DNA from: Alphaproteobacteria bacterium
GTDB taxonomy: Bacteria > Pseudomonadota > Alphaproteobacteria > Oceanibaculales > Oceanibaculaceae
NCBI GenBank assembly: GCA_018823745.1
Contig: JAHJHR010000016.1
Coordinates: forward strand, 1 to 64,000
Length of the DNA: 64,000 nucleotides
Direction of reading: 5' to 3'
How positions within the stretch are numbered: position 1 is the first letter of the stretch; each line of letters opens with the position of its first letter. The position numbers and the translations under genes are program-made. The notes under the pieces were generated by a model. The model was not told the origin of the DNA. It searched no databases and saw only the letters and a program-made list of their open reading frames with translations. Positions 9,528 to 54,966 of the stretch are shown here, piece by piece.

Positions 9528-9629
9528 AGGCGGGCGGCACCAGAAGTTATCCCTTCCATCCTCGGCGATGCCTCCCATCTGAAAGGCATGAAGCCGGCAC
9601 CTGCCGGCACCGAGGATAGGAGATTTCTC

Positions 9630-10343: not shown

Positions 10344-10346
10344 CCG

Positions 10347-11099: not shown

Positions 11100-11143
11100 C
11101 GAAAACCCCTCCCTGCTTTTTGTCGTTGCCGGTTTGTCGCAGG

Positions 11144-12144
<1,001 letters not shown>

Positions 12145-12148
<4 letters not shown>

Positions 12149-13122
12149 GCCGCATCCTCCAGATGGGGGTGGAAACAACGCGCGAAACGGCCGGGACGAT
12201 GTTCCTCCACCGGCGGCGTGGTCTCGCAGGCGGCATCGGCCCGGGCACAGCGCGGACGAAACGGACAGCCGGGCGGCAGGTCGATTGGCGTCGGGGCCAT
12301 GCCCGGAATCTGTGTCAGCGGCTGGCCGCGCGGATTGCGCGACGGCACCGACCCGATCAGCCCCTTGGTATAGGGATGGATCGGGTCATCGACGATCTGC
12401 CCGACCGGCCCGCGCTCGACAATGCGCCCGGCATACATGACGCAGAGTTCGTCAGCCAGACCGGCAACGACGGACAGGTCATGGGTGACCCAGATCAGCC
12501 CCATATTCTGTTCCGCCACCAGCTTCTGCATCTCATAGAGAATCTGCGCCTGGATGGTCACGTCCAGCGCCGTCGTCGGCTCGTCGGCGATGATCAGCTC
12601 CGGCTTGTGCAGCAGGGCGATGGCGATGGCCACGCGCTGGCGCATGCCGCCGGAGAACTGATGCGGATAGGCGCTCAGGCGCTCCTCCGGCGAGGGAATA
12701 CCGACCTGCCCCAGCGCATCGCGGGAGCGCTGGCGGGCAGTCTCGTGGTCGACCTTCTCATGCGCCTGGATGGTCTCGATCATCTGGGTGTCGATGCGCA
12801 GCACCGGGTTCAGCGTCATCATCGGGTCCTGGAAGATCATGGCGATCCTCCGGCCCCTGATCTTGCGCATCTCCGCTTCCGGCAGGCCGACCAGATCCTG
12901 GCCATGGAACAGGATGCGCCCGCCGACGATCCGGCCCGGCGGATCGACCAGCCCCATGATCGAGAAGCCGGAAACCGACTTCCCCGATCCGCTTTCGCCG
13001 ACCAGCCCCATGATCTTGCCGCGGCCGATCTCGAACGACACATCGTCGACCGATTTGACGACCCCGGCCTTGGTGAAGAAATGGGTCTGGAGGTTTTCGA
13101 CCTTGAGTACCGCGTTACTCAT
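12145..13122 (-). CDS. Oligo/dipeptide-type ABC transporter ATP-binding protein (DppD/OppD-like)
   Basis: [33 protein letters not shown], Walker [13 protein letters not shown], signature [18 protein letters not shown] at 13122. Confidence 0.94.
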
Positions 13123-14051
13123 CGCTGCAACCTCGGATTCAGAATGTCGCGCAGCTGGTCGCCCACCAGATTGATGGCAACGATGGTCAGCAGCAATGCC
13201 AGCCCCGGAAAGAAACTGATCCAGTAGCGGCCCGACAACAGATAGTTGAAGCCGTTGGAAATCAGCAGGCCGAGAGACGGTTCGGTCACCGGCAGGCCGA
13301 TGCCCAGGAAACTCAGCGTCGCTTCCAGCGCGATGGCGTTCGCCACCTGCACCGTGCCGATGACAATGACCGGCGGCAGGCAGTTCGGCAGGAGATGACG
13401 GAAGATGATGCGCGGCGTGGACAGCGCCAGCGACCGTGCCGCCTCGATATATTCCTTGCGCCGCTCGACCAGGGCGGCGCTGCGCGAGGTGCGGGCGTAA
13501 TAGGCCCATTGCACGATGACCAGGGCCAGGATCACCTTGTCGACGCCGCGCCCCAGGATCGCCAGCAGGATCAGCGCCACAAGGATGGCGGGAAAGCTCA
13601 GCTGCAGATCGACGATGCGCATGATCAGCGTCTCGATCCGCCCGCCGAAATAGGCCGCGCTCAACCCCACCGACGTGCCGATGATCAGGGCAAAGAAGCC
13701 ACTGAGAATGCCGACCGTCAGGCTGATCCGCAGGCCATAGAAAATGCCGCTCAGCATATCGCGGCCCTGGCCGTCTGTGCCAAGCCAGTAGACCATCCCG
13801 GTATAGCTTTCCGAGCCGGGCGGCAGCTTGGAATCCATGATATCGATCTGCGTCAGATCGAAGGGGTCCTGCGGCGACAGCCAGGGCGCAAAAATCGCGA
13901 CCAGCAGAATCAGGACCAGCCCGACCAGGCCGACAACGGCAAGCTTGCTCTCTAGAAACGCGCTCAGCAGGCGGCGCCACGGCGCAATGGCCTTGCGCGC
14001 GCTGGGTGCGACCTCGACCGAGGCGACAGGTTCGCTGTGACTGGTGCTCAT
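13119..14051 (-). CDS. ABC transporter permease (DppC-like)
   Basis: Multi-TM protein with LGTDGQGRDMLSGIFYGLRISL and EAARSLALSTPRIIFRHLLPN (BPD_transp_1 EAA loop). Confidence 0.94.
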   Translation of the reverse strand: MSTSHSEPVASVEVAPSARKAIAPWRRLLSAFLESKLAVVGLVGLVLILLVAIFAPWLSPQDPFDLTQIDIMDSKLPPGSESYTGMVYWLGTDGQGRDMLSGIFYGLRISLTVGILSGFFALIIGTSVGLSAAYFGGRIETLIMRIVDLQLSFPAILVALILLAILGRGVDKVILALVIVQWAYYARTSRSAALVERRKEYIEAARSLALSTPRIIFRHLLPNCLPPVIVIGTVQVANAIALEATLSFLGIGLPVTEPSLGLLISNGFNYLLSGRYWISFFPGLALLLTIVAINLVGDQLRDILNPRLQR

Positions 14052-38301: not shown

Positions 38302-38730
38302 ATGGCGGGGGATCGCCCGGGATATGAGCTGGAGGCGCAGATCGGGCATCTGCTGCGCCGGGCTCACCAGCGGGCGACCTCCCTCTTCCTCGCCTCGATG
38401 CAGGAACACCAGCTGACCCCCACGCAATGGGCGGCACTGGTGAAGCTGCATGAACAGGGCGCGCTGTCACAGAATCATCTCGGCCGGCTGACCGCGATGG
38501 ACCCGGCAACCATCCAAGGCGTGATCCGCCGTCTTGTGACCCGCGACCTGATCTGCCGCGCCGAAGACCTGAACGACCGCCGCCGTGCCGTGCTGCGCCT
38601 GACCGAAGCGGGCACGGCCCTGGTCGACCAGCTCTTCGCCACCGCCGCCGGCATCAGCCGCGAAACCCTCTCGCCGCTCTCCCCCAGCGAACAGGCTGTT
38701 TTCCTGAAGCTGCTGCAGCGACTGGCCTAA
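38302..38730 (+). CDS. MarR family transcriptional regulator
   Basis: LTPTQWAALVKLHEQGALSQNHLGRLTAMDPATIQGVIRRLVTRDLICRAEDLNDRRRAVLRLTEAG. Confidence 0.95.
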   Translation: MAGDRPGYELEAQIGHLLRRAHQRATSLFLASMQEHQLTPTQWAALVKLHEQGALSQNHLGRLTAMDPATIQGVIRRLVTRDLICRAEDLNDRRRAVLRLTEAGTALVDQLFATAAGISRETLSPLSPSEQAVFLKLLQRLA

Positions 38731-38781
38731 GCCCCCCCCTCCAGCATCCCTCTTGACGGCGAAGCGCTGACTCCATCAGTA

Positions 38782-38807
38782 TATTCGAAACCATACGTAC
38801 ACGAATA
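38782..38807. promoter_or_regulatory. Putative operator upstream of the Mo-hydroxylase operon
   Basis: Inverted repeat TATTCG-N14-CGAATA between marR-like gene and FAD subunit gene; lies downstream of TTGACG (38753-38758). Confidence 0.5.
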
Positions 38808-38810
38808 AAT

Positions 38811-38915
38811 CGTGACGTCGGAATAACCGACCGGGAGCAACCCGGCGGCGACAGGGAAGTCAGCTTCCTGGCAGCGAGCCCACCTTGTTTTCCAAGGTGG
38901 CCAGCCACGGGGGAG
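38811..38915 (+). ncRNA. Candidate structured 5' leader (possible riboswitch or regulatory RNA)
   Basis: Consecutive stem-loops: GTCGG-AATAA-CCGAC (38817-38831), CCGGG-AGCAA-CCCGG (38831-38845, shares one base), CAGG(G)AAG-TCAG-CTTCCTG (38852-38870), CCACCTTG-TTTTC-CAAGGTGG (38880-38900), then RBS GGGGGAG before GTG 38922; CGTG 38811-38814 can pair with CACG 38906-38909. Confidence 0.4.
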
Positions 38916-38921
38916 AAGTAG

Positions 38922-39767
38922 GTGAGCGACGGTCGGTATCTGCGCCCGGAGCGGCTTGACGAGGCTGTATACGCGCTGCAAGGCGGTGGCTGGACCCTGC
39001 TGGCTGGCGGCACGGATTATTTTCCCGGCCGCGTGATCGACCAGTCGTCCTGTGACATTCTCGATCTCACCGCCCTGCCCGGCCTGCGCGGCATTGCCGA
39101 CCAGGGCGATCATCTGCGCATCGGCGCACTGACCAGCTGGACCGACATTATCGAGGCGCCCTTGCCGCCCTGTTTCGACGGGCTGAAACTGGCGGCGCGC
39201 GAAGTCGGCGGCATGCAGATCCAGAATCGCGGCACCATCGCCGGCAATCTCTGCAATGCCTCGCCGGCGGCCGATGGCGTGCCGCCCCTGCTGACGCTGG
39301 ATGCCTCGGTCGAACTCTCATCCGCCGAGGGGGTACGCGTCCTGTCGCTCTCCGAATTCATCCTCGGCAATCGACGGACGGCGCGCCGGCCGGACGAGCT
39401 GATGACCGCCATCCTGGTGCCGAAACCCGCTTATCCGGCGCGCGCCACTTTCCTTAAGCTGGGTGCGCGGCGCTATCTGGTCATCTCCATCGTCATGGTG
39501 GCCGGCGTGCTGGAAGTCACGGATGGCCTTGTCAGTGCCGCCCGGATCGCCGTCGGTGCGTGCTCCGCCGTGGCGCAGCGACTGCCCCTGCTGGAAGCCG
39601 CGCTGATCGGTCAGAAGGCTGATGCGGCTCTAGCGGAGCGGGTGACAGCCGCACATCTGGCCGGGCTGGCGCCAATCGACGATATCCGCGCCGATGCAGA
39701 GTATCGCCTTGACGCGGCATTGGTCCTGACCCGGCGCTGCCTGGCCCTTCTGGGAAATCCCGCATGA
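38922..39767 (+). CDS. FAD-binding subunit of xanthine dehydrogenase-family molybdenum hydroxylase
   Basis: GWTLLAGGTDYFPG, ALPGLRGIADQGDHLRIGALTSWTDI, QIQNRGTIAGNLCNASPAADGVPPLLTLDA; GTG start. Confidence 0.94.
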   Translation: MSDGRYLRPERLDEAVYALQGGGWTLLAGGTDYFPGRVIDQSSCDILDLTALPGLRGIADQGDHLRIGALTSWTDIIEAPLPPCFDGLKLAAREVGGMQIQNRGTIAGNLCNASPAADGVPPLLTLDASVELSSAEGVRVLSLSEFILGNRRTARRPDELMTAILVPKPAYPARATFLKLGARRYLVISIVMVAGVLEVTDGLVSAARIAVGACSAVAQRLPLLEAALIGQKADAALAERVTAAHLAGLAPIDDIRADAEYRLDAALVLTRRCLALLGNPA

Positions 39768-42514
39768 ATATCCCCCTGACCGAGAACCGGATCAGCCTGA
39801 CGGTGAACGGCACGCCGGTCACCCTGTCCGTGGCACCGATGCGCCGGCTGACCAGCGTTCTGCGCGACCAGCTGGGGCTGACCGGCACCAAGGTGGGCTG
39901 CGATGCCGGCGATTGCGGTGCCTGCACCGTGCTGATGGATGGCAAGCAGGTCTGCGCCTGCCTGGTGCCTGCCGCACAGGCGGATGGCGCGGAGATCGTG
40001 ACAGTGGAAGGCCTGGCCCTGGATGGCCGTCTGAACGCCCTGCAACAGGCCTTCCACAGGCATGGGGCGGCGCAATGCGGCATCTGCACGCCGGGCATGC
40101 TGATGGCCGCCAGCGCCCTTCTGGCGACACAGCGACACCCGGATCGCGGGCAGGTCGAGGATGCGCTGGGCGGCGTGCTGTGCCGCTGCACCGGCTATAG
40201 CAAGATCGTCGAGGCGGTGATGGATGCGGGCGGTTCTGCCACGCCGGTCATCGCCGAATCCGGTAGCGCGGTGGGCGCGCGAATCCCCCGCAAGGATGGC
40301 ATCGGCAAGCTGACCGGCGCCGAGAAATTCGGCGCCGACGACACCCCCGCCGATGCGCTGTGGCTGCGCGCCATCCGCTCGCCCCACGCCCATGCCCGAT
40401 TTACACTGGGCGATCTGGCGGCCTTCACAGCAGCGCATCCGGGCGTCGAGCGGGTCTTCACCGCCCGCGACGTGCCGGGCAGCAACAGCTTCGGCATCTA
40501 TCCCGATCTGAAGGACCAGCCGGTGCTGGCCGATGGGTATGTGCGCTTCCGGGGCGAGGCGGTGCTGGCACTGGTCGGCGACCGGGCAGTGCTGGAGCGG
40601 ATCGCGGACTCGGATATCCCCATCGACTGGACGCCGCTGCCCGCCCTCTCCGGCACAATTGCGGCGATGGCCGAGGGCGCACCGGTACTGCATCCGGGCC
40701 GCGCCGATAACGTCTTGATCGAGGGCCGCGTCGCGCGCGGCGATCTCAAGGCGGGCTTCGCGCTAGCGGCGGTGCGCAGCGCCGGCCATTTCGAGACCGG
40801 CTTCGTCGAGCATGCCTATATCGAGCCGGAGGCTGGCTATGCCCGCCGGATCGGCGAGCGTATCGAGATCACCGCCTGCACCCAGACGCCCTATATGGAC
40901 CGCGACGAGGTCGCCCATGTGCTGGGCATCGCGAAACACGCCGTGCGCATCGTGCCGACCGCGACCGGCGGGGGCTTCGGCGGCAAGCTGGATATGTCGG
41001 TGCAGCCGCTGCTGGCCACCGCCGCCTGGCTGCTGGGGCGGCCGGTGCGGATGATCTATCACCGCCCGGAATCCATGGCATCGACCACCAAGCGCCACCC
41101 GTCCCGCATCGATGTCGAGGCGGCGGCGGATGCGGCAGGCCACATCACCGCCTTCCGCTTCCAGGGCGATTTCAATACAGGGGCCTATGCCTCCTGGGGG
41201 CCGACCGTCGCCAACCGCGTGCCGGTGCACGCCACCGGCCCCTACAAGGTCGGATCGGCGCTGTGCACCAGCCGGGCGATCTATACCAATGACACACCGG
41301 CCGGCGCGTTTCGCGGTTTCGGCGTGCCGCAGGCGGCCATCGCGCATGAGGCGATGATGGACGATCTGGCCCTGAAACTGGGCATCGACCGGCTGGAATT
41401 CCGCCTGATCAACGCGCTGCGCAAGGGCGACACCACGCATTGCGGCCAGACCATCGCGCATTCGGTCGGGCTGGATGCCTGCCTGGAGGCGCTGCGCCCG
41501 CGCTGGCGCCAGCTGATCGCCGAGAACATCGCCTTCAACGCGCAGAATGCCGAAAGGCGACGCGGCATCGGCATTGGCTGCATGTGGTATGGCTGCGGCA
41601 ACACCTCGATGTCGAACCCGTCCACCATGCGGCTGGGGCTGAAGCCGGACGGGCGGCTGGTGCTGTATAACGGCGCGCATGATATCGGCCAGGGCAGCTA
41701 TACCATCATGGCGCAGATCGCCGCCGATGCGGTCGGGCTGCCGGTCGATCTGGTGGACCAGGTCTATGCCGATACCGATCTGACCGCCGATGCCGGCAAG
41801 ACCTCCGCCTCGCGCCAGACCTTCGTGTCGGGCAAGGCGGCGGAGCTGGCAGGGCTGGATCTGCGCGCCGCCCTGCTGCGCCTCGCCAATGCCGGGCCAG
41901 AGGCGGTGCTGGCGCTGGACGGGCCGGTGCTGACGATCACCGACGGCGCCGATATCCGCCGCCTCGACCTGCGGGAAATGCCGGCAGATCAGGGCCATGT
42001 TCTGCTGGGCGAGGGGACGTTCGATCCGCCGACCACGCCACTGGACGAGGATGGCCAGGGCGTGCCCTACGCCACCTATGCCTTTGCAGCCCAGATTGCG
42101 CAGGTTGAGGTGGATATCGAGCTGGGCACGGTGAAGCCGCTGCTGATCGCCGCCGCGCATGATGTCGGCCGCTCGATCAACCCGATGCTGGTCGAAGGGC
42201 AGATCCAGGGCGGTATCGCGCAGGGCCTCGGCCTGGCGCTGATGGAGGAATTCATCCCCGGCCGCACCGAGAATCTGCACGACTATCTGATCCCCACCTT
42301 CGGCGACATGCCGCCCATCGAGATTCACCTGATCGAGGATGTCGAGCCGCTCGGCCCCTATGGCGCCAAGGGCATCGGCGAACCGGCGCTGGTGCCGACC
42401 GCCCCGGCCCTGCTGGGTGCGATCCGCGACGCGACCGGGGCCGTCATCCGCCAGGTGCCCGCCTTGCCGCACCGGGTCCGCAAGGCGATGCGAGAACAGG
42501 GCAGGCCGTTATGA
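39764..42514 (+). CDS. Molybdopterin-dependent hydroxylase with fused N-terminal [2Fe-2S] domain
   Basis: GCDAGDCGACTVLMDGKQVCAC, CGICTPGM, CRCTGYSKIVEAV; Mo domain motifs GGGFGGKLD, GAFRGFGVPQA, GAKGIGEPALVPTAPALLGAI. Confidence 0.95.
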   Translation: MNIPLTENRISLTVNGTPVTLSVAPMRRLTSVLRDQLGLTGTKVGCDAGDCGACTVLMDGKQVCACLVPAAQADGAEIVTVEGLALDGRLNALQQAFHRHGAAQCGICTPGMLMAASALLATQRHPDRGQVEDALGGVLCRCTGYSKIVEAVMDAGGSATPVIAESGSAVGARIPRKDGIGKLTGAEKFGADDTPADALWLRAIRSPHAHARFTLGDLAAFTAAHPGVERVFTARDVPGSNSFGIYPDLKDQPVLADGYVRFRGEAVLALVGDRAVLERIADSDIPIDWTPLPALSGTIAAMAEGAPVLHPGRADNVLIEGRVARGDLKAGFALAAVRSAGHFETGFVEHAYIEPEAGYARRIGERIEITACTQTPYMDRDEVAHVLGIAKHAVRIVPTATGGGFGGKLDMSVQPLLATAAWLLGRPVRMIYHRPESMASTTKRHPSRIDVEAAADAAGHITAFRFQGDFNTGAYASWGPTVANRVPVHATGPYKVGSALCTSRAIYTNDTPAGAFRGFGVPQAAIAHEAMMDDLALKLGIDRLEFRLINALRKGDTTHCGQTIAHSVGLDACLEALRPRWRQLIAENIAFNAQNAERRRGIGIGCMWYGCGNTSMSNPSTMRLGLKPDGRLVLYNGAHDIGQGSYTIMAQIAADAVGLPVDLVDQVYADTDLTADAGKTSASRQTFVSGKAAELAGLDLRAALLRLANAGPEAVLALDGPVLTITDGADIRRLDLREMPADQGHVLLGEGTFDPPTTPLDEDGQGVPYATYAFAAQIAQVEVDIELGTVKPLLIAAAHDVGRSINPMLVEGQIQGGIAQGLGLALMEEFIPGRTENLHDYLIPTFGDMPPIEIHLIEDVEPLGPYGAKGIGEPALVPTAPALLGAIRDATGAVIRQVPALPHRVRKAMREQGRPL

Positions 42515-44019
42515 ACGACGCCACGCCCACACTGGATCAGGAAGAGGGCGAGATCGTCCGCTGCGATGCCTGCCCGGTGATCTGCCGCATCCGCAAGGGC
42601 CGCTCCGGCGCCTGCGACCGCTATGGCAATGTCGAGGGCGTGCTGATGCGCCTCGACCCGTTGATGGTGACGCAGCAAATCGAGCGCAAGCAGGGCGCGG
42701 TGGTGCCGTTTCTGACCGACGCATGGGATGGTTCGCTGATCGCCGGTGCGCCGACCTTCCTGACCGGCATCGGCTCCGGCACCACCTATCCCGACTACAA
42801 GCCGGCCCCCTTCATCGTCTCCACCCCGCATCAGGGCGTGGATACAGTGACCGTGGTGACCGAGGGAATCTTCAGCTATTGCGGCGTGAAGGTGAAAATC
42901 GACACTGACCGCTATGTCGGGCCGGAACAGGCGCTGGTGCGCCATGAGGGCGAGGCGGTCGGCCATGTGACGACCGCCGAATACGGCTCGCAGATGCTCT
43001 CGCTGGGCGGCGTGCATCACCTGACCGGCGGCAGCAAGAAGGAAGGCAACGCCACCTGCGCGGCGCTGCTGGCGCTGTGCAACAAGCAGGCGGTGGAGCT
43101 GACCGTCGATGGCGGCTCTGCGCTGATCCTGCAAGCCGGCATGGCGCCCATCGTCGACACCCGGCAGGAACAGCGCATGCGTGTCGGCTGCGGGTCCGCC
43201 ACCATCGGCATCTTCGCCAAGCAATGGCACGAGCATGCCGACGAGGTGATCGTCGTCGATGACCACATCACCGGCGTCTTCACCGAGCACCAGGCCGGCA
43301 AATACCTCGACGTGCGGCCCGCCGGCATCCGGGTGCGCGGGCGACGCTCGACGCCGGGGCGCTATTTCCAGGTCGCCAGTCCGGGCAGCGGCTGGGGTGG
43401 CACCGACGTGACCGACCCGCTGTCGATCATCGACCGGATCGATGCGAAGACCGCCTGGCCGGGCCTGCGCCTGCTGATGGTCTCCACCACCGGCGAGGAC
43501 CATGCCTATTTCGTGCTGGACGAGAATCTGGTGCCGGTGCCGCAGCCCCTTCCCACCAGCCTGAATCCGGTGGTCGAGCGCATCGAGGAGAATTGCGAGC
43601 CGGCGATGACCTCGGTGCTGTTCATGGCCGGGGCTGGCGGAAGCCTGCGCGCCGGCGTGACCGAGAATCCGGTGCGCCTGACCCGCTCCGTCCGCGACCT
43701 CGTCACCCGCGTCACCTGCGGCGGTGCGCCGGTCTATGTCTGGCCGGGCGGCGGGATCACGCTGATGGTCGATGTCACCCGCATGCCGGAAAATTCCTTC
43801 GGCTATGTACCGACACCGGCGCTGGTTGCCCCCATCGAATTCACCCTGCCGCGCGCCGATTACGAGGCGATGGGCGGGCATGGTGGCTCCATCCGGCCGC
43901 TCGACGACGTGCTGGCGGAAATGAGCGGCGCCGTCTCGACGCCGCAGCCGGTGGATAATCCCTGGCCGCTGGCCCCGCAGGACCGACCGCAGGACCGTCT
44001 GGGGGAGAAAGCGCGATGA
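42511..44019 (+). CDS. 6-hydroxynicotinate reductase-like Fe-S protein
   Basis: N-terminal Cys cluster RCDACPVICRIRKGRSGACDRYGN; whole-protein resemblance to proteins annotated as 6-hydroxynicotinate reductase; 4-nt overlaps with both neighbours. Confidence 0.75.
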   Translation: MNDATPTLDQEEGEIVRCDACPVICRIRKGRSGACDRYGNVEGVLMRLDPLMVTQQIERKQGAVVPFLTDAWDGSLIAGAPTFLTGIGSGTTYPDYKPAPFIVSTPHQGVDTVTVVTEGIFSYCGVKVKIDTDRYVGPEQALVRHEGEAVGHVTTAEYGSQMLSLGGVHHLTGGSKKEGNATCAALLALCNKQAVELTVDGGSALILQAGMAPIVDTRQEQRMRVGCGSATIGIFAKQWHEHADEVIVVDDHITGVFTEHQAGKYLDVRPAGIRVRGRRSTPGRYFQVASPGSGWGGTDVTDPLSIIDRIDAKTAWPGLRLLMVSTTGEDHAYFVLDENLVPVPQPLPTSLNPVVERIEENCEPAMTSVLFMAGAGGSLRAGVTENPVRLTRSVRDLVTRVTCGGAPVYVWPGGGITLMVDVTRMPENSFGYVPTPALVAPIEFTLPRADYEAMGGHGGSIRPLDDVLAEMSGAVSTPQPVDNPWPLAPQDRPQDRLGEKAR

Positions 44020-44876
44020 GCGTGCAGCGCGCCTTCCTGCCCGATGGCCGGCTGCATCTGCAGCACGGGCCGATCGATCTGGTCATCGGGGCCACTGGTG
44101 CCTTCGATGAGGTTCGGCTGGCCTATCGCCAGTCTATCCGCGCCTTTGACGGGCTGCTGGAGGAAATCGCCGCTGAACTGCCGGTGCTGCGCCAGCCGAT
44201 CGGCGAGGCCCTGCCCCCTTTGCGCGGCCCGGTCGCCCGGCGCATGGCGGCGGCGGTGCATCCGTTCCGCGGCCTCTTTATCACGCCGATGGCCGCCGTC
44301 GCCGGATCAGTCGCCGACCATATGCTGGCGGCGATGACATCTGGCCGCCGGCTCGCCAAGGCTTATGTGAATGATGGCGGCGACATCGCCTTTCACCTGG
44401 CACGGGGCCACAGTTTCCGTACTGGCATTGTCAGCGATCCGCAAGATGAGGCGCTGGCCGGCATGACGGACATCCCCTTCGAATCCGCCGTGCGCGGCAT
44501 TGCCACCAGCGGCCGCGATGGCCGGTCCTTCTCGCTGGGTATCGCCGATTCGGTGACCGTGCTGGCCGGCAGCGCCGCCGAGGCTGACGCGGCGGCGACG
44601 CTGATCGCCAATGCCGTCGACCTGCCGGGCCATGCCGCCATCCATCGCGCCCCGGCCAACAGCCTGGCCCCCGACAGCGATCTGGGCGATTTGCCGGTGA
44701 CGCTGGAGGTGGGCGCGTTGAGCGAAGCGGAGATCGCCACCGCCCTGCAATCCGGCCTGGACAGGGCCCATGCGCTGCACGGGGCTGGACACATAAGGTC
44801 GGCAATGCTGTCATTGCGCGCTCGCGTCAGGCTGTGCGGCGCCCCCCACATGCTGGAATCGTTGGAAACGCCATGA
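44016..44876 (+). CDS. UPF0280 family protein (ApbE-like fold)
   Basis: FRGLFITPMAAVAGSVADHMLAAM, AYVNDGGDIAFHL, GIATSGRDGRSFSLGIADSVTVLAGSAAEADAAATLIANAVD. Confidence 0.82.
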   Translation: MSVQRAFLPDGRLHLQHGPIDLVIGATGAFDEVRLAYRQSIRAFDGLLEEIAAELPVLRQPIGEALPPLRGPVARRMAAAVHPFRGLFITPMAAVAGSVADHMLAAMTSGRRLAKAYVNDGGDIAFHLARGHSFRTGIVSDPQDEALAGMTDIPFESAVRGIATSGRDGRSFSLGIADSVTVLAGSAAEADAAATLIANAVDLPGHAAIHRAPANSLAPDSDLGDLPVTLEVGALSEAEIATALQSGLDRAHALHGAGHIRSAMLSLRARVRLCGAPHMLESLETP

Positions 44877-45460
44877 GCGACCTCGTCCAAATCCGCAAGA
44901 TCGTCACCATCGTCGAGGAAATCCGCCATGATGGCGGGCCGACCCCCGACCGGCCGGTCCGGCGCGCCGCCTGCCTCGCCGTCATCCGCAACCCCTATGC
45001 CGGCCGCTATGAGCCCGACATCACGCCGCTGATGGAGGCGCTGAAGCCACTGGGCATGGATATGTCGCAGCGGCTGATCGCAGCGCTGGGCGGCGATGTG
45101 ACGAAGATCGAAAGCTATGGCAAGGGCTCGATCATCGGCCTTGCCGGAGAGCTGGAGCATGGCGCGTGCTGGCATGTGCCGGGCGGCTATGCGATGCGCG
45201 AATTGCTGGGCAGCGCCAAGGCCATCGTGCCCTCGGCCACCAAGGTCGGCGCGGCGGGCGCGCGCCTCGACGTGGCGCTCGGTCACAAGGACGCCGCCTA
45301 TGTGCGCAGCCATTTCGACGCGATGGAGGTCGGCATTCACGACGCGCCGCGCGAAGACGAGATCGTCTATTGCCTGGTGATGACCGATGGCGGGCGCATC
45401 CATGCCCGCGTCGGCGGCTTGCAGGTACAGGATATCAAGGGGGTGGACGGCCTCCGCTAA
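44873..45460 (+). CDS. Amino acid synthesis family protein (DUF1185)
   Basis: IRKIVTIVEEIRHDGG, ACLAVIRNPYAGRYEPDITPLM, SYGKGSIIGLAGELEHGACWHVPGGYAMRE, VPSATKVGAAGARLDVALGHKDAAYVRSHFD. Confidence 0.82.
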   Translation: MSDLVQIRKIVTIVEEIRHDGGPTPDRPVRRAACLAVIRNPYAGRYEPDITPLMEALKPLGMDMSQRLIAALGGDVTKIESYGKGSIIGLAGELEHGACWHVPGGYAMRELLGSAKAIVPSATKVGAAGARLDVALGHKDAAYVRSHFDAMEVGIHDAPREDEIVYCLVMTDGGRIHARVGGLQVQDIKGVDGLR

Positions 45461-45520
45461 AACGGAAACGCCAAACCGTCCGGGACAGTATCGCCGAGAT
45501 TCTCACGAATGGGGACGAGC

Positions 45521-46744
45521 ATGATGAACCGTAGAGCCTTTACCGGACTGGCGCTTGCCACCGGGCTTACCGCCGCCCTCGCCGGCACCGCCACCTTGGC
45601 GCCGGCGCTTGCCGCCGACAAGATCGTGCTGGGCGACATGAATTCCTATACCGGTTTTGCTTCCTTCACGATTCCCTACAAGCAGGGCTGGGAACTGGCG
45701 CTGGAGGAGATCAACGCCTCCGGCGGCATCCTCGGCCGCCAAGTGACGGTGGTCAGCCGTGATGACGGCGCCAAGCCGGCCGATGCGGTGACCGTGGCCA
45801 ACGAGCTGGTCAGCCGCGAGGGTGCGACCCTGCTGTTCGGCACGCTGCTGTCGCATGTCGGCCTTGCCGTCTCCGACTTCGCCAAGCAGAAGAAGGTGAT
45901 CTTCATCGCTGCCGAGCCGCTGTCCGACACCATCGCCTGGCAGAAGGGCAACCGCTACACCTTCCGCCTGCGTCCCGGCACCTATGTGCAGGCGGCGATG
46001 CTGGCCGAGGAAGCCGCCAAGCTGCCGGCCAAGCGCTGGGCGACCATCGCGCCGAACTATGAATACGGCCAGTCAGCGGTTGCCGCCTTCAAGGAATTGC
46101 TGAAGGCCAAGCGCCCCGATGTCGAATTCATTGCCGAGCAGTGGCCGGCGCTGGGCAAGCTGGATGCCGGTGCGGCCGTCCAGGCGCTGTCGGCGGCCAA
46201 TCCGGATGCGATCTACAACGTCACCTTCGGCCCCGATCTGCTGCGCTTCGTGCGCGAGGGCAAGGTGCGCGGGCTGTGGGAGAAGCGCCCCGTGGCCAGC
46301 ATGCTGAGCGGTGAGCCGGACTGGATCGACCCGATGAAGGACGAGGCACCGGAAGGCTGGCTGGTCACCGGCTATCCCTGGTATGCCATCGACACGCCGG
46401 AACACAACAAGTTCCGCGATGCCTTCCAGAAGAAGTTCAACGATTATCCGCGCCTCGGTTCCGTGGTCGGCTATGCCGCGCTCTATTCGGTGAAGGCGGC
46501 GATGGAAAAGGCCGGCACGACCGAGACCGAGAAGCTGGTGGATGCCTTCGCCGATCTGAAGCTGGGCACCCCGGTCGGGCCGATTGTCTACCGCGCGATC
46601 GACAACCAGACCACCATGGGCGCCTATGTCGGCACGCTGACCGTTAAGGACGGCATGCCGCGCATGGTCGACTGGCGCTTCGGCAAGGGCGAGGATTACC
46701 TGCCCTCCGACGAGGTCGTCAGGACGCTCCGCGCAAAAGACTGA
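45521..46744 (+). CDS. Branched-chain amino acid-type ABC transporter substrate-binding protein
   Basis: Signal peptide, LGDMNSYTGFASFTIPYKQGWELALEEINASGGILGRQVTVVSRDDGAKPADAVTVANELVSREGA. Confidence 0.95.
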   Translation: MMNRRAFTGLALATGLTAALAGTATLAPALAADKIVLGDMNSYTGFASFTIPYKQGWELALEEINASGGILGRQVTVVSRDDGAKPADAVTVANELVSREGATLLFGTLLSHVGLAVSDFAKQKKVIFIAAEPLSDTIAWQKGNRYTFRLRPGTYVQAAMLAEEAAKLPAKRWATIAPNYEYGQSAVAAFKELLKAKRPDVEFIAEQWPALGKLDAGAAVQALSAANPDAIYNVTFGPDLLRFVREGKVRGLWEKRPVASMLSGEPDWIDPMKDEAPEGWLVTGYPWYAIDTPEHNKFRDAFQKKFNDYPRLGSVVGYAALYSVKAAMEKAGTTETEKLVDAFADLKLGTPVGPIVYRAIDNQTTMGAYVGTLTVKDGMPRMVDWRFGKGEDYLPSDEVVRTLRAKD

Positions 46745-46799
46745 GCCTCGGGCTCCCCCGCCCCGGCCCTGCCCCACAAGGGGGGAGGGAGCGCGCCTT

Positions 46800-46826
46800 A
46801 ACCCTCCCCCTTGAGGGGGGAGGGTT
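46800..46826 (+). repeat. GC-rich hairpin (intergenic palindromic element; possible attenuator)
   Basis: AACCCTCCCCC (46800-46810) / GGGGGAGGGTT (46816-46826), 5-nt loop TTGAG, between SBP and permease genes. Confidence 0.6.
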
Positions 46827-46874
46827 GGGGAGGGGGTGACCGCCGCACCGACCGCCGATAACGGAACCCCGCCC

Positions 46875-48746
46875 TTGGAATTCTTCCTCTCCCAGCTGCT
46901 GACCGGGCTTGCCAGCGCGTCCGCCCTGTTTCTCGTGGCGTGCGGCCTGACCATCATCTTCGGCGTCACGCGTATCGTGAATTTCGCCCATGGCAGCTTC
47001 TACATGCTGGGCGCCTATATCGCCTATTCGGCGATCACGGCGCTGGGCGGCGGCTTCTTCGGCTTCTGGGGCGGGGTGATTCTGGCCGCCCTGGCCGCCG
47101 GGCTGATCGGCGTGGCGATGGAAATGACCATCCTGCGCCGCATCTATCACGCGCCGGAGCTGTTCCAGCTGCTGGCGACCTTCGGCGTCGTGCTGATCGT
47201 GCAGGATGTCGCCCTCTATCTCTGGGGGCCGGAAGATCTGCTGGGGCCACGCGCGCCGGGGCTGACCGGGGCGGTGGCGATGGGCAGCCAGCGCATCCCG
47301 GAATACGACATTTTCCTCATCCTCTTCGCGCCGCTGGTGCTGGGCGTATTGTGGCTGCTGTTCCACCGCACCCGCTTCGGCATTCTGGTGCGCGCCGCAA
47401 CGCAGGACCGGCAGATGGTGGCGGCGCTCGGCGTGAACCAGAAATGGCTGCTGACCGGGGTGTTCTTCCTGGGGGCGGCGCTGGCCGGGCTGGGCGGGGC
47501 GATTCAGCTGCCCAAGGGCAATGCCGGGCTGACCATGGATCTGGGCATTATCGCCGAGGTCTTCGTCGTTACCGTGGTCGGCGGCATGGGATCGATCCTG
47601 GGCGCCTATCTGGCGGCCCTGCTGATCGCGCTGATCCGTGTCTTCGCAGTCGCCAATGCCGGCAGCAGCCTGCTCGGCATCCAGCTCTGGCAGGTCGAGC
47701 TGGTGCTGATCTTCGCCGTCATGGCGGTAGTGCTGGTGGTCCGGCCCTGGGGGTTGCTGGGCAAGCGCGAGACGCTGACCGGCCATCATGGCGCGGTGGA
47801 GCCGCCCTTGCTGGCCGCCCCGGCGGCGCTGAAATGGTTCGCTCTGGCGGTCCTCGCTCTGCTCGTCGCCCTGCCCGGCATGGCCGGCACCTACAGCCTG
47901 GTCATCGCCACCGAGATCCTGATCTTTGCGCTGTTCGCCGCCTCTTTGCATTTCCTGATGGGCGTGGGCGGCGTCATCTCCTTCGGCCATGCCGCCTATT
48001 TCGGGCTGGGGGCCTATGGGGCGGCGCTGATGGTGAAGCATTTCGCCTGGCCGATGGAGGCCGCCCTCTTCGCCGCCCCGCTGGGCGGGGCGCTGGGGGC
48101 GCTGATCTTCGGCTGGTTCTGCGTGCGCCTGTCGGGCGTCTACCTGGCCATGCTGACGCTGGCCTTCGCGCAGATCGCCTGGGCGGTGGCCTTCCAGTGG
48201 ATCGACGTGACCGGCGGCGATAACGGCATTCTCGGCATCTGGCCCTCCTCCTGGGCCGCGACGACACCGGCCTTCTACGGGCTGGTCCTTGTGGTGGTGA
48301 TCGTGATGCTGCTGGCGATCCGCCGCATCGCCTTCTCGCCCTTCGGCTATGCCCTGCGCGCCGGGCGTGATTCACCGCTCCGGGCCGATGCCATCGGCAT
48401 CGATGTGCGCCGCATGCGCTGGTTCGCCTTCACCCTGGCCGGCTTGTTCGCCGGCGTAGCGGGCGGGTTGTTCGCCTTCCTGAAGGGCAGCGTCTCGCCC
48501 GATCTGATGGGCATTCCTTTATCGGTCGATGCGCTGGTCATGGTGCTGCTGGGCGGCGTGCAGACTTTGGCCGGCCCGCTTGTCGGCGCGGTCACCTTCA
48601 CGGCGCTGAAGACCGAGCTGGTCAGCCTGACCAATTACTGGCGGCTGCTGCTGGGGCTGGTCATCGTCGGGCTGGTCATCGCCTTCCCGCAGGGCATTGC
48701 CGGCTTCGTGCGCGACCGCTTCATGGCGAAGGAGACAAGGGCATGA
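46875..48746 (+). CDS. Fused LivH-LivM-type ABC transporter permease
   Basis: LivH half (ALFLVACGLTIIFGVTRIVNFAHGSFYMLGAY) and LivM half (GVGGVISFGHAAYFGLGAYGAALM) in one ORF. GTG 46836 opens the ORF inside the hairpin element; TTG 46875 gives a typical LivH N-terminus (MEFFLSQLLTGL). Confidence 0.93.
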   Translation: MEFFLSQLLTGLASASALFLVACGLTIIFGVTRIVNFAHGSFYMLGAYIAYSAITALGGGFFGFWGGVILAALAAGLIGVAMEMTILRRIYHAPELFQLLATFGVVLIVQDVALYLWGPEDLLGPRAPGLTGAVAMGSQRIPEYDIFLILFAPLVLGVLWLLFHRTRFGILVRAATQDRQMVAALGVNQKWLLTGVFFLGAALAGLGGAIQLPKGNAGLTMDLGIIAEVFVVTVVGGMGSILGAYLAALLIALIRVFAVANAGSSLLGIQLWQVELVLIFAVMAVVLVVRPWGLLGKRETLTGHHGAVEPPLLAAPAALKWFALAVLALLVALPGMAGTYSLVIATEILIFALFAASLHFLMGVGGVISFGHAAYFGLGAYGAALMVKHFAWPMEAALFAAPLGGALGALIFGWFCVRLSGVYLAMLTLAFAQIAWAVAFQWIDVTGGDNGILGIWPSSWAATTPAFYGLVLVVVIVMLLAIRRIAFSPFGYALRAGRDSPLRADAIGIDVRRMRWFAFTLAGLFAGVAGGLFAFLKGSVSPDLMGIPLSVDALVMVLLGGVQTLAGPLVGAVTFTALKTELVSLTNYWRLLLGLVIVGLVIAFPQGIAGFVRDRFMAKETRA

Positions 48747-49510
48747 GCGCGGTTCTCGAAGTCGCCGGCCTGTCGAAGTCCTTCGGCGGGGTGAAGGCGG
48801 TCAGCGATGTCTCCTTCAGCCTTGCCGCCGGGGAATTACTGGCGCTGATCGGCCCGAACGGGGCCGGCAAGACGACCTGCTTCAACATGCTGATGGGGCA
48901 GCTGCGCCCCGATACCGGGACCATAAAGCTGGCCGGTCGGGATATCGCCGGGCTGGCGCCGCGCCGCATCTGGCGGCTGGGCGTCGGGCGTACTTTCCAG
49001 ATCACTGCCACCTTCGCCTCGATGAGCGTGCGCGAGAATGTGCAGATGGCGCTGCTGTCGCATCACCGCCGCCTGCTGTCGCTGTTCGCCGATGCCGGCA
49101 GCCAGTATATCGACGACGCCATGGCGCTGCTGACCCTGGTCGGCATGGAGGCGCAGGCGGAGCGGCCCTGTGGCGTGCTGGCCTATGGCGATCTGAAGCG
49201 AGTCGAACTGGCCGTCGCGCTGGCCAACAACCCGAAACTGCTACTGATGGACGAGCCGACCGCCGGCATGGCCCCGCGCGAGCGCATCGCGCTGATGGAG
49301 CTGACCGCCCGCATCGTGAAGGAGCGCGGCATTTCCGTGCTGTTCACCGAGCATGACATGGATGTCGTCTTCGCCCATGCCGACCGCATCTTCGTGCTGA
49401 ATCGCGGCCGGCTTCTGGCCGAGGGCACGCCGCAGCAGGTGCGCGACAATGCGCTGGTGCAGGAAACCTATCTCGGCAGCGGCGCCATGTTCGCCGATGG
49501 GGGGCAATGA
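48743..49510 (+). CDS. LivG-like ABC transporter ATP-binding protein
   Basis: Walker A GPNGAGKTTCFNM, GRTFQITATFASMSVRENVQ, DEPTAGMAPRER. Confidence 0.95.
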   Translation: MSAVLEVAGLSKSFGGVKAVSDVSFSLAAGELLALIGPNGAGKTTCFNMLMGQLRPDTGTIKLAGRDIAGLAPRRIWRLGVGRTFQITATFASMSVRENVQMALLSHHRRLLSLFADAGSQYIDDAMALLTLVGMEAQAERPCGVLAYGDLKRVELAVALANNPKLLLMDEPTAGMAPRERIALMELTARIVKERGISVLFTEHDMDVVFAHADRIFVLNRGRLLAEGTPQQVRDNALVQETYLGSGAMFADGGQ

Positions 49511-50211
49511 TGCTGGTTGTCGAGGGTATCAGCGCCTATTACGGCCGCGCCCATATCCTGGCCGATGTCGGGTTGAGCGTGGCGCGCGGCGAGGTACTGG
49601 CGCTGCTGGGCCGCAACGGGGCCGGCAAGTCGACCACGCTGAAATCGATCATCGGGCTGGTGCCGCCCGCCGCCGGCAGCGTGCGCTTCGAGGAGCGCGA
49701 AATCGCCAGCCGTCCGTCTTATGAGATCGCACGGCTCGGCCTCGGCTATGTGCCGGAGGAACGGCGCATCTTCAGCGAGCTGACAGTGCTGGAAAATCTC
49801 GAGGTCGGCCGGCAGAAGCCGCGCCCCGGCGTGCCGGAATGGACGCCCGAGCGGCTGTTCGCGATTTTCCCGAACCTGGCCGAAATGCGCAACCGGCCCG
49901 GCGGCCAGATGAGCGGCGGCGAGCAGCAGATGCTGACCATCGCGCGCACGCTGATGGGCAACCCCTCCCTGGTGCTGCTCGACGAACCGTCCGAGGGCCT
50001 GGCGCCCAAGATCGTCGAGCAGATGGCCGAGACGCTGAAGGCGCTGAAGCAGGAGGGGCTGACGCTGATCCTGTCCGAACAGAATCTCCACTTCGCCCGG
50101 CTGGTCGCCGACCGGGCCACCATCATCGAAAAAGGCCGCATCCGCTTCACCGGCACCATGGCCGAGCTGATGGCCGATGATGATGCAAGGACGGCCTATC
50201 TGACGGTGTGA
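49507..50211 (+). CDS. LivF-like ABC transporter ATP-binding protein
   Basis: GRNGAGKSTTLKSIIGL, GLGYVPEERRIFSELTVLENLEVG, SGGEQQMLTIARTLMGNPSLVLLDEPSEGLAPKIV. Confidence 0.97.
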   Translation: MMLVVEGISAYYGRAHILADVGLSVARGEVLALLGRNGAGKSTTLKSIIGLVPPAAGSVRFEEREIASRPSYEIARLGLGYVPEERRIFSELTVLENLEVGRQKPRPGVPEWTPERLFAIFPNLAEMRNRPGGQMSGGEQQMLTIARTLMGNPSLVLLDEPSEGLAPKIVEQMAETLKALKQEGLTLILSEQNLHFARLVADRATIIEKGRIRFTGTMAELMADDDARTAYLTV

Positions 50212-51692: not shown

Positions 51693-53399
51693 CTAGTTGC
51701 GGCCTTCCAGCTTGCGCGACAGCAACCCGCGCCCGACGACATGGGCCTGAATCTCGGCCGCGCCCTCGAAGATGTTCAGGATGCGGGCATCGCACAGCAC
51801 CCGGCTGATCGGATATTCATGGGCATAGCCATTGCCGCCATGCACCTGCAGCGCATTGTCAGCATTCGACCAGGCGACGCGGGCGGCCAGCAGCTTGGCC
51901 ATGCCGGCCTCGATGTCGCAGCGCCGGTCGCTGTCCTTCTCGCGCGCGGCGAAATAGGTCAGTTGCCGGGCGATCATGGTTTCCACCGCCATCCAGGCCA
52001 GCTTGCCGAAGACGCGCGGGAAGGCATAGATCGGCCGGCCGAATTGCTGGCGCTCGCGGGCATAGGCGAGGCCCAGCTCCAGCGCGTTCTGCGCCACGCC
52101 GACGGCGCGCGCGGCGGTCTGGATGCGGGCACTCTCGAAGGTCGCCATCAGCTGCTTGAAGCCCTGGCCCTCGATACCACCCAGCAGATTCTCCGCCTTC
52201 ACCTGGAAGCCGTCGAAGCCCAGCTCGTATTCCTTCATGCCGCGATAGCCCAGCACATGGATCTCGCCGCCGGTCATGCCCTCGGCCGGGAAGGGGTTCT
52301 CTTCCGTGCCGCGCGGCTTTTCCGCCAGGAACATCGATAGACCCTTATAGCCGCTGTCCGGCGAACCGGTACGGGCCAGGATGGTCATCATGTCAGTGCG
52401 GGCGGCATGGGTGATCCAGGTCTTGTTGCCCTGGATGCTATAGGCGTCGCCGTCACGGACCGCGCGGGTGCGCAAGGAGGCGAGGTCGGAGCCGGTATTC
52501 GGCTCGGTGAACACGGCGGTCGGCAGGATTTCGCCGCTGGCCAGCTTCGGCAGCCAGTGTTCCTTCTGCTGCGGCGTGCCGCCCAGACGGATCAGCTCGC
52601 CGGCAATCTCCGAGCGGGTACCCAGCGAGCCGACGCCGATATAGGCGCGGGATAATTCCTCGGTCACCACGCACATCGCCATCTTGCCGAGGCCGAGGCC
52701 GCCATTCTCCTCCGGAATGGTCAGGCCGAACACGCCCAGCTCGGCCATCTGCTCGACCACCGCGATGGGGATCAGTTCATCCTTCAGATGCCACTCATGG
52801 GCATGCGGCGTCACCTGCTCCGCGCCGAAGCGGCGGAACTGGTCGCGCATCATCTCCAGCATCTCATCATCGAAGCCCAGCGCGCCGAAATCGCCGCTCG
52901 ACAGACCGTCTTCCATCAGCTCGGCCAGGCGCAGGCGGGTGGCATTGGTGGTGCCCGCCGCAATCAGCGCCTCGACCTCGGCGGTATGGAAGGCCGTGAC
53001 CTCGGCCGCCGCGACACCAAAATCGCGGGGCCGCACGATCTCGACCTGCGAGATGGCGATCCCGCCCTCGATCTGCGCCAGATATTCGCCGAAGGCCGCC
53101 TGCAGGATCAGCGCCTCGAATTCGCGCAAGGCCCCCTGCGCCTCCAGCCTTTCGGCCCAGCCCAGCATCTGGCGCAGCGCTTCCGTATAGGTCGCCAGCC
53201 AGGAGACGCCATGCACTGCCAGCTGCTCCTGATCCAGCAGGGCGCTGCTGATCCGGCCATCCTGCGCCACCCGTGCGGCAACGCTGCGCATCGCACCGTC
53301 AGTCAGGCGGTCGGCGGCCTCCACCGCCATCCGGCAGGTCGGCAGCAGATCGGCGAGAAGGAGATTGGCGGTTTCGGTCTTCGGCGCGGCGGCGGACAT
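51693..53399 (-). CDS. mcd: Acyl-CoA dehydrogenase with extended N-terminus, likely methylsuccinyl-CoA dehydrogenase
   Basis: Acyl-CoA DH motifs (TEPNTGSDLASLRTRAV, KTWITHAARTDMM, HGGNGYAHEYPISRVLCDARILNIFEGAAEIQ), about 170-aa N-terminal extension, next to ccr and ecm. Confidence 0.85.
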   Translation of the reverse strand: MSAAAPKTETANLLLADLLPTCRMAVEAADRLTDGAMRSVAARVAQDGRISSALLDQEQLAVHGVSWLATYTEALRQMLGWAERLEAQGALREFEALILQAAFGEYLAQIEGGIAISQVEIVRPRDFGVAAAEVTAFHTAEVEALIAAGTTNATRLRLAELMEDGLSSGDFGALGFDDEMLEMMRDQFRRFGAEQVTPHAHEWHLKDELIPIAVVEQMAELGVFGLTIPEENGGLGLGKMAMCVVTEELSRAYIGVGSLGTRSEIAGELIRLGGTPQQKEHWLPKLASGEILPTAVFTEPNTGSDLASLRTRAVRDGDAYSIQGNKTWITHAARTDMMTILARTGSPDSGYKGLSMFLAEKPRGTEENPFPAEGMTGGEIHVLGYRGMKEYELGFDGFQVKAENLLGGIEGQGFKQLMATFESARIQTAARAVGVAQNALELGLAYARERQQFGRPIYAFPRVFGKLAWMAVETMIARQLTYFAAREKDSDRRCDIEAGMAKLLAARVAWSNADNALQVHGGNGYAHEYPISRVLCDARILNIFEGAAEIQAHVVGRGLLSRKLEGRN

Positions 53400-53555
53400 G
53401 GCATTCGCAGTCGTTGGGAGTGGGATGGCTACTACATGGCACAAATCGCCCGGTTTGCCAGCCCCTCACCGGCGCCGGGCGGCTGTGCGTATGCGCCTGA
53501 CCGTACCGAGATAGACTGAGAAAAGGGGGCATTCTGCCCCAAGCTCTGTTGGCCG

Positions 53556-54860
53556 TTACCCCTCGCGCGCCTGGTCCAGCGTGCGCATGCCGGGGCGTTT
53601 GGCCTGGACCAGCACGGCCATGTTGCCGGGCTTGTGCTCGTTCTTCATCATCTTCACATGGGCGCGCGGGATATCGGCCCAGGAGAAGACTTCCGACATG
53701 CAGGGGTCGATGCGGCGTTCGATCACCAGCCGGTTGGCCTGCGAGGCCTGCATCAGATTGGCGAAATGGCTGCCCTGGATGCGTTTCTGGCGCATCCAGA
53801 CGAAGCGGGCATCGAAGGTGATATTGAAGCCGGTGGTGCCGGCGCAGAACACGACCATGCCGCCGCGCTTCACCACGAAGCAGGAAACCGGGAAGGTCTG
53901 CTCGCCGGGATGCTCGAAGACGAAATCGACGTCATTGCCCTTGCCGGTAATCTCCCAGATCGCCTTGCCGAAGGCGCGGCTGCGTTTCATGTAGTCGCCA
54001 TAGGCCGCCGTGTCCAAGACGTCGGGCATGCGGCCCCAGCAGTCGAAATCCTTGCGGTTGATGACGCCTTTCGCGCCCAGGCTCATGACGAAATCGCGCT
54101 TGGTCTCGTCCGAGATCACGCCGATGGCGTTGGCGCCAGCCGTCGCGATCAGCTGGATCGCCATCGAGCCGAGCCCGCCGGACGCGCCCCAGACCAGGAC
54201 GTTATGGCCCGGCCGCAGGATATGCGGGCGATGGCCGAACAGCATGCGATAGGCGGTCGCCAGCGTCAGCACATAGCAGCCGCATTGCTCCCAGGTCAGA
54301 TGCTTCGGGCGCGGCATGAGCTGGCGGCCCTGCACCCGGCAGAACTGTGCGAAGGACCCGTCCGGCGTCTCATAGCCCCAGATACGCTGCGAGGGCGAGA
54401 ACATCGGGTCGCCGCCATTGCATTCCTCGTCATCGCCATCGTCCTGGTTGCAATGGACCACGACCTCGTCACCGACCTTCCAGCGCGTCACCCGCGCGCC
54501 GACCGCCCAGACCACGCCGGCCGCATCGGAACCGGCGATATGGTAATCCGCGCCATGCACGTCGAAGACCGAGATCGGCACGCCGAGGCCGGCCCAGACG
54601 CCGTTGTAATTCACGCCGGCGGCCATCACCATGACCAGAACCTCGTCATCGGCGATGAGCGGTGTATGCAGCACCTCGACCTGCATCGCCTGGTCCGGCG
54701 GCCCCTGCCGGTCGCGGCGGATCGCCCAGCCATACATCCGCGGCGGCACATGGCCGAGCGGCGGGATCTCGCCCACCTCATACAGATCCTTCAGCACCGG
54801 CGCCTCCGCAGGCAGATCGGGTGTCAGGGCAAGCACTTTTGCGCTGGCGTCGCTCATCAT
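53556..54860 (-). CDS. ccr: Crotonyl-CoA carboxylase/reductase
   Basis: KDLYEVGEIPPLGHVPPRMYGWAIRRDRQGPPDQAMQVEVLHTP, VVHCNQDDGDDEECNGGDPMFSPSQRIWGYETPDGSFAQF, LVWGASGGLGSMAIQL. Confidence 0.96.
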   Translation of the reverse strand: MMSDASAKVLALTPDLPAEAPVLKDLYEVGEIPPLGHVPPRMYGWAIRRDRQGPPDQAMQVEVLHTPLIADDEVLVMVMAAGVNYNGVWAGLGVPISVFDVHGADYHIAGSDAAGVVWAVGARVTRWKVGDEVVVHCNQDDGDDEECNGGDPMFSPSQRIWGYETPDGSFAQFCRVQGRQLMPRPKHLTWEQCGCYVLTLATAYRMLFGHRPHILRPGHNVLVWGASGGLGSMAIQLIATAGANAIGVISDETKRDFVMSLGAKGVINRKDFDCWGRMPDVLDTAAYGDYMKRSRAFGKAIWEITGKGNDVDFVFEHPGEQTFPVSCFVVKRGGMVVFCAGTTGFNITFDARFVWMRQKRIQGSHFANLMQASQANRLVIERRIDPCMSEVFSWADIPRAHVKMMKNEHKPGNMAVLVQAKRPGMRTLDQAREG

Positions 54861-54966
54861 CGTCTCCCACGTCACGGCCGGTTGGCGTATCCTCGAACCG
54901 CTTTCTTTGCCGAGCATTGAAATTGCCCGTTTTCTAATGTTTCGGTTTTAGGTGATTGGGTTTCTG

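Follow-up and report, generated by a model that had tools for sequence, protein, structure and literature searches.

What does an operon degrade that pairs a molybdenum hydroxylase with a homologue of 6-hydroxynicotinate reductase (Hnr), and how would the reduced ring be opened where the operon holds no ring-cleavage gene? The locus that raises this question lies in a 64,000-nucleotide stretch (positions 1 to 64,000 of contig JAHJHR010000016.1, here referred to as the window) of the alphaproteobacterial assembly GCA_018823745.1 (family Oceanibaculaceae), a genome that is 93% complete. At positions 38302 to 50211, a MarR-family gene is followed on the forward strand by genes for the FAD subunit and the fused iron-sulfur/molybdopterin subunit of the hydroxylase, Hnr, a UPF0280 protein, and a DUF1185 protein, and then by a Liv-type ABC transporter. 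The operon is probably of a known kind, the Azorhizobium/SG-6C-type cluster for aerobic reductive nicotinate degradation, in a variant without the enamidase. In the window's subtype, the place of this enzyme seems to be taken by HyuAB, a lactam hydrolase that depends on ATP and is encoded elsewhere in the genome.

The first-pass annotation had presented the operon as undescribed, a claim that has to be withdrawn. A 2012 report described a cluster with Hnr, a nicotinate hydroxylase, an ABC transporter, and two conserved proteins of unknown function, and its conservation among strains, in Azorhizobium caulinodans ORS571, Bradyrhizobium, Rhodopseudomonas HaA2, and strain SG-6C (PMC3511419). The SG-6C Hnr homologue is 42% identical to Hnr of Eubacterium barkeri, and 6-hydroxynicotinate appears transiently during nicotinate breakdown by this strain (PMC3511419). 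We match the two unknown proteins to UPF0280 and DUF1185 because loci from Rhodopseudomonas (L100) and Xanthobacter (L109) show the parts together: the nicotinate dehydrogenase NicAB, Hnr, enamidase, UPF0280, DUF1185 of two clades (a and b), a Liv transporter, and MarR. The window shares with the Azorhizobium/SG-6C cluster a molybdenum hydroxylase, Hnr, an ABC transporter, UPF0280, and DUF1185, as well as the MarR gene seen in L100 and L109. It differs in that it lacks the enamidase, has an FAD plus fused Fe-S/Mo hydroxylase in place of NicAB, carries one DUF1185 (clade a), and has HyuAB on a separate contig. Hnr-type reduction is also common to nicotinate fermentation by E. barkeri (Hnr, enamidase 2VUN, and Ndh), and a true enamidase occurs in clusters related to the window; unlike that system, the window is proteobacterial and encodes neither enamidase nor the downstream fermentation genes.

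To evaluate conservation, we sampled 299 genomes of the phylum, 21 of which encode Hnr, and compiled 108 Hnr loci. Gene content and co-occurrence are direct observations here, as are family membership, conservation, and the fold of UPF0280. UPF0280 lies near Hnr at 106 of the 108 loci, the exceptions being L068, where a contig end cuts the locus, and L071, which is uncut. Most of the loci have DUF1185, and an FAD/Mo or NicAB hydroxylase, a Liv transporter, and MarR are also recurrent, the MarR gene being detected at 40 loci and frequently directly upstream. Because UPF0280 accompanies Hnr so nearly always and DUF1185 at most loci, the linkage exceeds chance. A ferredoxin-NADP reductase, a likely electron source, is present in 13 Hnr loci, and the window's genome encodes a 50% homologue elsewhere. 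Separately, the Hnr clusters L026, L027, L045, and L054 contain an inserted Rieske-type dioxygenase alpha subunit, which suggests an additional substrate-entry step.

The window's Hnr (42511 to 44019, forward strand) was identified by its identity to Hnr homologues (61 to 75% overall), since no Pfam or NCBIfam model covers it. It is 61 to 68% identical to plasmid-encoded proteins, many of which are annotated as 6-hydroxynicotinate reductase, and 67 to 69% identical to Hnr of L100 and L109. The family has eight near-invariant cysteines and many near-invariant Gly, Thr, and Asp positions. An AlphaFold2 (AF2) model of Hnr (predicted local distance difference test [pLDDT] of 76, predicted template modeling score [pTM] of 0.68) found no fold match in the PDB (best E 0.16), so that either the fold is uncharacterized or the model is insufficient. 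In the single-contig genome G016, the Hnr of L212 (C1, approximately 8821 to 10256) is split into two frames, with the break near residue 243, and may be a pseudogene or reflect a sequencing or assembly error.

Upstream of Hnr, the molybdenum hydroxylase is complete by domain content, with an FAD subunit (38922 to 39767, forward strand, GTG start; PF00941 and PF03450) and a fused 2x[2Fe-2S] and molybdopterin subunit (39764 to 42514, forward strand; PF00111, PF01799, PF01315, PF02738, and PF20256) that would be a nicotinate 6-hydroxylase. The Mo subunit matches, among other PDB entries, 1dgj (aldehyde oxidoreductase) and 3hrd (nicotinate dehydrogenase). The enzyme could instead be an ordinary xanthine or aldehyde oxidase in an operon for purines or amino acids, given that xanthine dehydrogenase and aldehyde oxidoreductase models match the Mo subunit and that DUF1185 carries the name "amino acid synthesis"; yet the scores fall far under the xanthine dehydrogenase cut-offs, the hydroxylase is closely linked to Hnr over many loci, and the DUF1185 name derives from Liv-type neighbors, which together make this account most improbable. 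Import, Mo-dependent hydroxylation, and Hnr-type reduction of an N-heteroaromatic compound, as first proposed for this operon, are well supported, and nicotinate is the likeliest substrate.

It had also been noted that no ring-cleavage genes are visible, which is true of the window. It does not extend to related loci, which carry enamidase or HyuAB, or to the window's genome, which encodes cluster-type HyuAB elsewhere. Among the 65 Hnr loci of at least 15 kb ("long" loci), 22 have an enamidase, 28 have HyuA/HyuB, none has both, and 15 have neither. The exclusion is observed directly (Fisher p ~1e-7, a value inflated by shared ancestry) and is counted per locus, with enamidase-positive genomes not searched genome-wide for HyuAB. 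The one cluster amidohydrolase that was compared, from L028, aligns with E. barkeri enamidase 2VUN over nearly its full length (376 bits), and by this similarity the amidohydrolase of Azorhizobium/SG-6C-type clusters is assigned as enamidase. In the 299-genome sample, enamidase orthologues (at least 60% identity) are confined to Hnr-positive genomes, 10 of the 21. Seven of the 11 enamidase-negative Hnr genomes encode cluster-type HyuAB, six of them beside Hnr and the window's genome on contig C3; no enamidase orthologue is present in the window or in its 93% complete genome.

The C3 HyuA gene (156504 to 158540) adjoins that for HyuB, and the two proteins are 60% and 65% identical to cluster proteins, the next HyuA paralogue being only 34% identical. 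The closest relatives of C3 HyuA, at 72%, are HyuA of L034 and of L052 from Ferrovibrio; in L052, HyuA directly follows an operon ordered like that of the window (MarR/FAD/Mo/Hnr/UPF0280/DUF1185a/SBP/LivHM/LivG/LivF, where SBP is the substrate-binding protein). C3 HyuAB belongs to the N-methylhydantoinase/5-oxoprolinase/caprolactamase class, sharing family and subunit organization with caprolactamase and N-methylhydantoinase, to which it is closest. Known hydrolases of this class cleave cyclic amides with ATP, and it is for this reason that we propose HyuAB as the opener of the reduced ring, 1,4,5,6-tetrahydro-6-oxonicotinate (THON).

Several points weigh against this proposal. The 15 long loci with neither module are one, and another is that no HyuAB was found in the searched flanks of four enamidase-negative Hnr genomes, all of one genus, other species of which have HyuAB beside Hnr or an enamidase on another contig. 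C3 HyuA and HyuB score 542 and 333 bits against CapA/CapB caprolactamase cut-offs of 1000, about one-half and one-third, and a different substrate is therefore expected. HyuAB shows identities of approximately 60% in a family whose members act on many different substrates, and it lies here on another contig, and a literature search found no experiment on any HyuAB-type cluster. The HyuAB subtype, the window included, could have another pyridine as its substrate, such as isonicotinate, picolinate, or a substituted nicotinate, with a lactam that resists enamidase, and the mutual exclusion of the two modules would be expected in that case, as would a window hydroxylase that is not of the NicAB type. 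Against such a split by substrate, Hnr and UPF0280 of the two subtypes are interleaved. The module label switches 12 times on the Hnr tree (73 labeled loci; shuffled mean 24), 14 times on the UPF0280 tree, and eight times on the Mo-subunit tree, where the window was labeled by the HyuAB of its genome and two loci by an enamidase on another contig. Furthermore, enamidase and HyuAB are each found with NicAB and with the same hydroxylase types: one FAD/Mo family accompanies enamidase at 19 loci and HyuAB at 25, and Neorhizobium L025 pairs NicAB with HyuAB. We consider a different pyridine unlikely and favor alternation of enamidase and HyuAB on nicotinate-derived THON.

DUF1185 (44873 to 45460, forward strand, starting with the ATG at 44873; PF06684 AA_synth, 239 bits against a cut-off of 27) had been put forward as a candidate ring-opening step. 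It adjoins Hnr at most loci, and it has a conserved set of Glu, His, and Arg residues and an oligomeric fold with a conserved cavity, with solved relatives 3byq and 2qtp. Its absence from 9 of the 28 HyuAB loci nevertheless argues against DUF1185 opening the ring while HyuAB and enamidase act elsewhere. So do its presence alongside bona fide enamidase and its occurrence in trigonelline-type clusters, which have another ring-opening route, and we regard that role as very unlikely. The DUF1185 tree separates clade a (64 rows, including the window) from clade b (39 rows) with full support, and clade b is present at all 22 enamidase loci of at least 15 kb. Clade b also pairs with enamidase-like genes where Hnr is missing: at L222 (5077 to 6803) and L223 (4080 to 5874), from two Hnr-negative genomes, a clade-b-like DUF1185 (43 to 45% identity) adjoins an enamidase-like amidohydrolase (41 to 43%), a separate two-gene module. 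The clade-b DUF1185 genes of three HyuAB loci (L026:14928, L025:14976, and L103:12989) sit on long branches (0.55 to 0.99), which could reflect relaxed selection once the enamidase was lost.

What DUF1185 might do instead is indicated by its other settings. Outside the Hnr clusters, at L174, L175, and L176 (approximately 9000 to 13900), it occurs with an alpha/beta hydrolase, a flavin reductase, an LLM monooxygenase, and an aldehyde dehydrogenase, all with generic annotation only, in a gene set that we take to be of the trigonelline (tgn) degradation type. A published DUF1185 protein is described as a homologue of TgnF, a protein that enhances the oxidation of succinate semialdehyde. TgnF and HcdD share PF06684 with the window's protein and belong to N-heterocycle or lactone catabolic operons, although their upstream chemistry differs and trigonelline-type DUF1185 is approximately 33 to 36% identical to that of the window. 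Because a formyl-dicarboxylate/semialdehyde stage is common to these pathways, DUF1185 may by analogy act there, a placement to which we give somewhat less than even chances. Its "amino acid metabolism/synthesis" label was derived from fold resemblance and Liv-type neighbors and is guilt by association.

UPF0280 (44016 to 44876, forward strand; NF003322, 379 bits against a cut-off of 290) was found in exactly the 21 Hnr genomes of the 299, plus one weak partial match (E 3e-4), and is predicted to be a maturation partner of Hnr. Its structural model (pLDDT 94) has as its top PDB fold match 2o34 (DVU1097) and, beyond COG2122, matches only ApbE flavin transferases (probability 0.99 to 1.00, many structures). 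In a profile alignment with ApbE (hhalign probability 94.6%, E 7e-8), the serine of the TSG motif and the Asp/Thr metal positions are kept, and the HILDPxTG loop, which contributes the general-base His in ApbE, is missing, the catalytic and metal roles of the ApbE Ser, His, and Asp being those given in a review (PMC12052999). ApbE itself was not found in the window's genome, at 93% completeness. E. barkeri Hnr reportedly carries a covalent flavin, and the modeled fold makes it attractive that UPF0280 is possibly the flavin transferase for Hnr. The lost His loop speaks against this. In addition, 39 Hnr sequences were scanned for the ApbE target motif D-x-x-[S/T]-G-A-[S/T], and none has it even when G, S, or V is allowed in place of Ala, a result that makes it less likely that UPF0280 merely repeats the reaction of ApbE.

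These same differences favor a non-flavin accessory role for UPF0280, for example in Fe-S cluster or persulfide handling, as does Desulfovibrio, in which COG2122 is required with DUF39 for homocysteine synthesis, is also tied to NIL/ferredoxin, and has a proposed persulfide role. The ApbE flavin transferases as the sole significant fold neighbors outside COG2122, the retained Ser and Asp/Thr positions, and the flavin said to be bound by E. barkeri Hnr pull the other way. We place this role only slightly short of an even chance; it concerns one part of the system and is compatible with the pathway. COG2122 of Desulfovibrio and methanogens (DVU1097, 2o34) has its family and fold in common with the window's protein, but its partner there is DUF39 and here is Hnr. 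DUF39 was not found in 150 sampled genomes of the phylum, the window's included, and Hnr, the other COG2122 partner, gave no Pfam match to DUF39 even at E 10.

In the pathway that we propose, every catalytic role in the window's organism is one that we infer. The Liv-type transporter would import nicotinate, the FAD and Fe-S/Mo enzyme would convert it to 6-hydroxynicotinate, and Hnr would reduce this to THON. HyuAB of contig C3 would then open the THON ring in place of enamidase, after which the enamine product would shed ammonia, leaving 2-formylglutarate to be decarboxylated on the way to glutarate; DUF1185 would help at this formyl-acid/semialdehyde stage. UPF0280 would catalyze no step and would serve as a dedicated Hnr accessory factor, possibly installing the covalent flavin. 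The joint proposition, that enamidase has repeatedly given way to HyuAB as an ATP-dependent lactamase for THON and that UPF0280 is a cytosolic ApbE-fold maturase attaching the covalent flavin of Hnr, is tentative and, taken whole, rather doubtful.

The remaining parts of the locus fit the first-pass annotation closely, as its ten open reading frames, families, and coordinates were recovered with Pfam and NCBIfam (and Hnr by identity). Its four 4-nt stop/start overlaps, at 39764, 42511, 44016, and 44873, each have the sequence ATGA, which also forms the LivHM/LivG and LivG/LivF junctions; such overlaps are frequent in bacteria and carry no special weight. The MarR-family gene (38302 to 38730, forward strand; PF01047, 46 bits), a candidate regulator of the operon, does precede it, although it starts 6 nt after aspS and ends 191 nt ahead of the operon. 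This 191-nt leader holds a candidate operator, the inverted repeat TATTCG-N14-CGAATA (38782 to 38807), which is weak and possibly due to chance. No sigma-70 consensus promoter was found in the leader, and a riboswitch or other known RNA was rejected there, given zero Rfam matches and folding that is only modestly better than that of shuffles (z -2.25).

On the forward strand, the transporter comprises the SBP (45509 to 46744; PF13458, 222 bits), a fused LivH-LivM permease (46836 to 48746; PF02653 in two stretches), and the ATPases LivG (48743 to 49510; PF00005 and PF12399) and LivF (49507 to 50211; PF00005), the final gene of the block. The nearest PDB relative of the SBP, 3i45 (505 bits), has nicotinate as its presumed ligand, which was not used as evidence here. 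Between the SBP and LivHM lies a G/C-rich, repeat-like inverted sequence, CCCTCCCCCTTGAGGGGGGAGGG (46745 to 46839). A uracil-DNA glycosylase-like gene follows livF on the opposite strand, and farther downstream, also on the reverse strand (51693 to 54917), are genes for an acyl-CoA dehydrogenase and a crotonyl-CoA carboxylase/reductase, the latter exceeding its NCBIfam cut-off (603 bits) and suggesting an ethylmalonyl-CoA pathway. Hnr and DUF1185 are each single-copy in the window's genome.

With the claim of novelty corrected, what is new is that the ring-opening modules, enamidase or HyuAB, alternate among Hnr loci, that UPF0280 is a near-constant companion of Hnr, and that DUF1185 falls into two clades, of which clade b accompanies enamidase-like genes also where Hnr is missing. 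An anonymous operon becomes a specific, testable pathway, and the alternation suggests a second, ATP-driven route for opening the reduced nicotinate ring. For DUF1185, the contexts seen here are catabolic, whereas the name "amino acid synthesis family protein" rests on an adjoining transporter. For UPF0280/COG2122, which has an unclear part in homocysteine synthesis, Hnr provides a second and far simpler test system.

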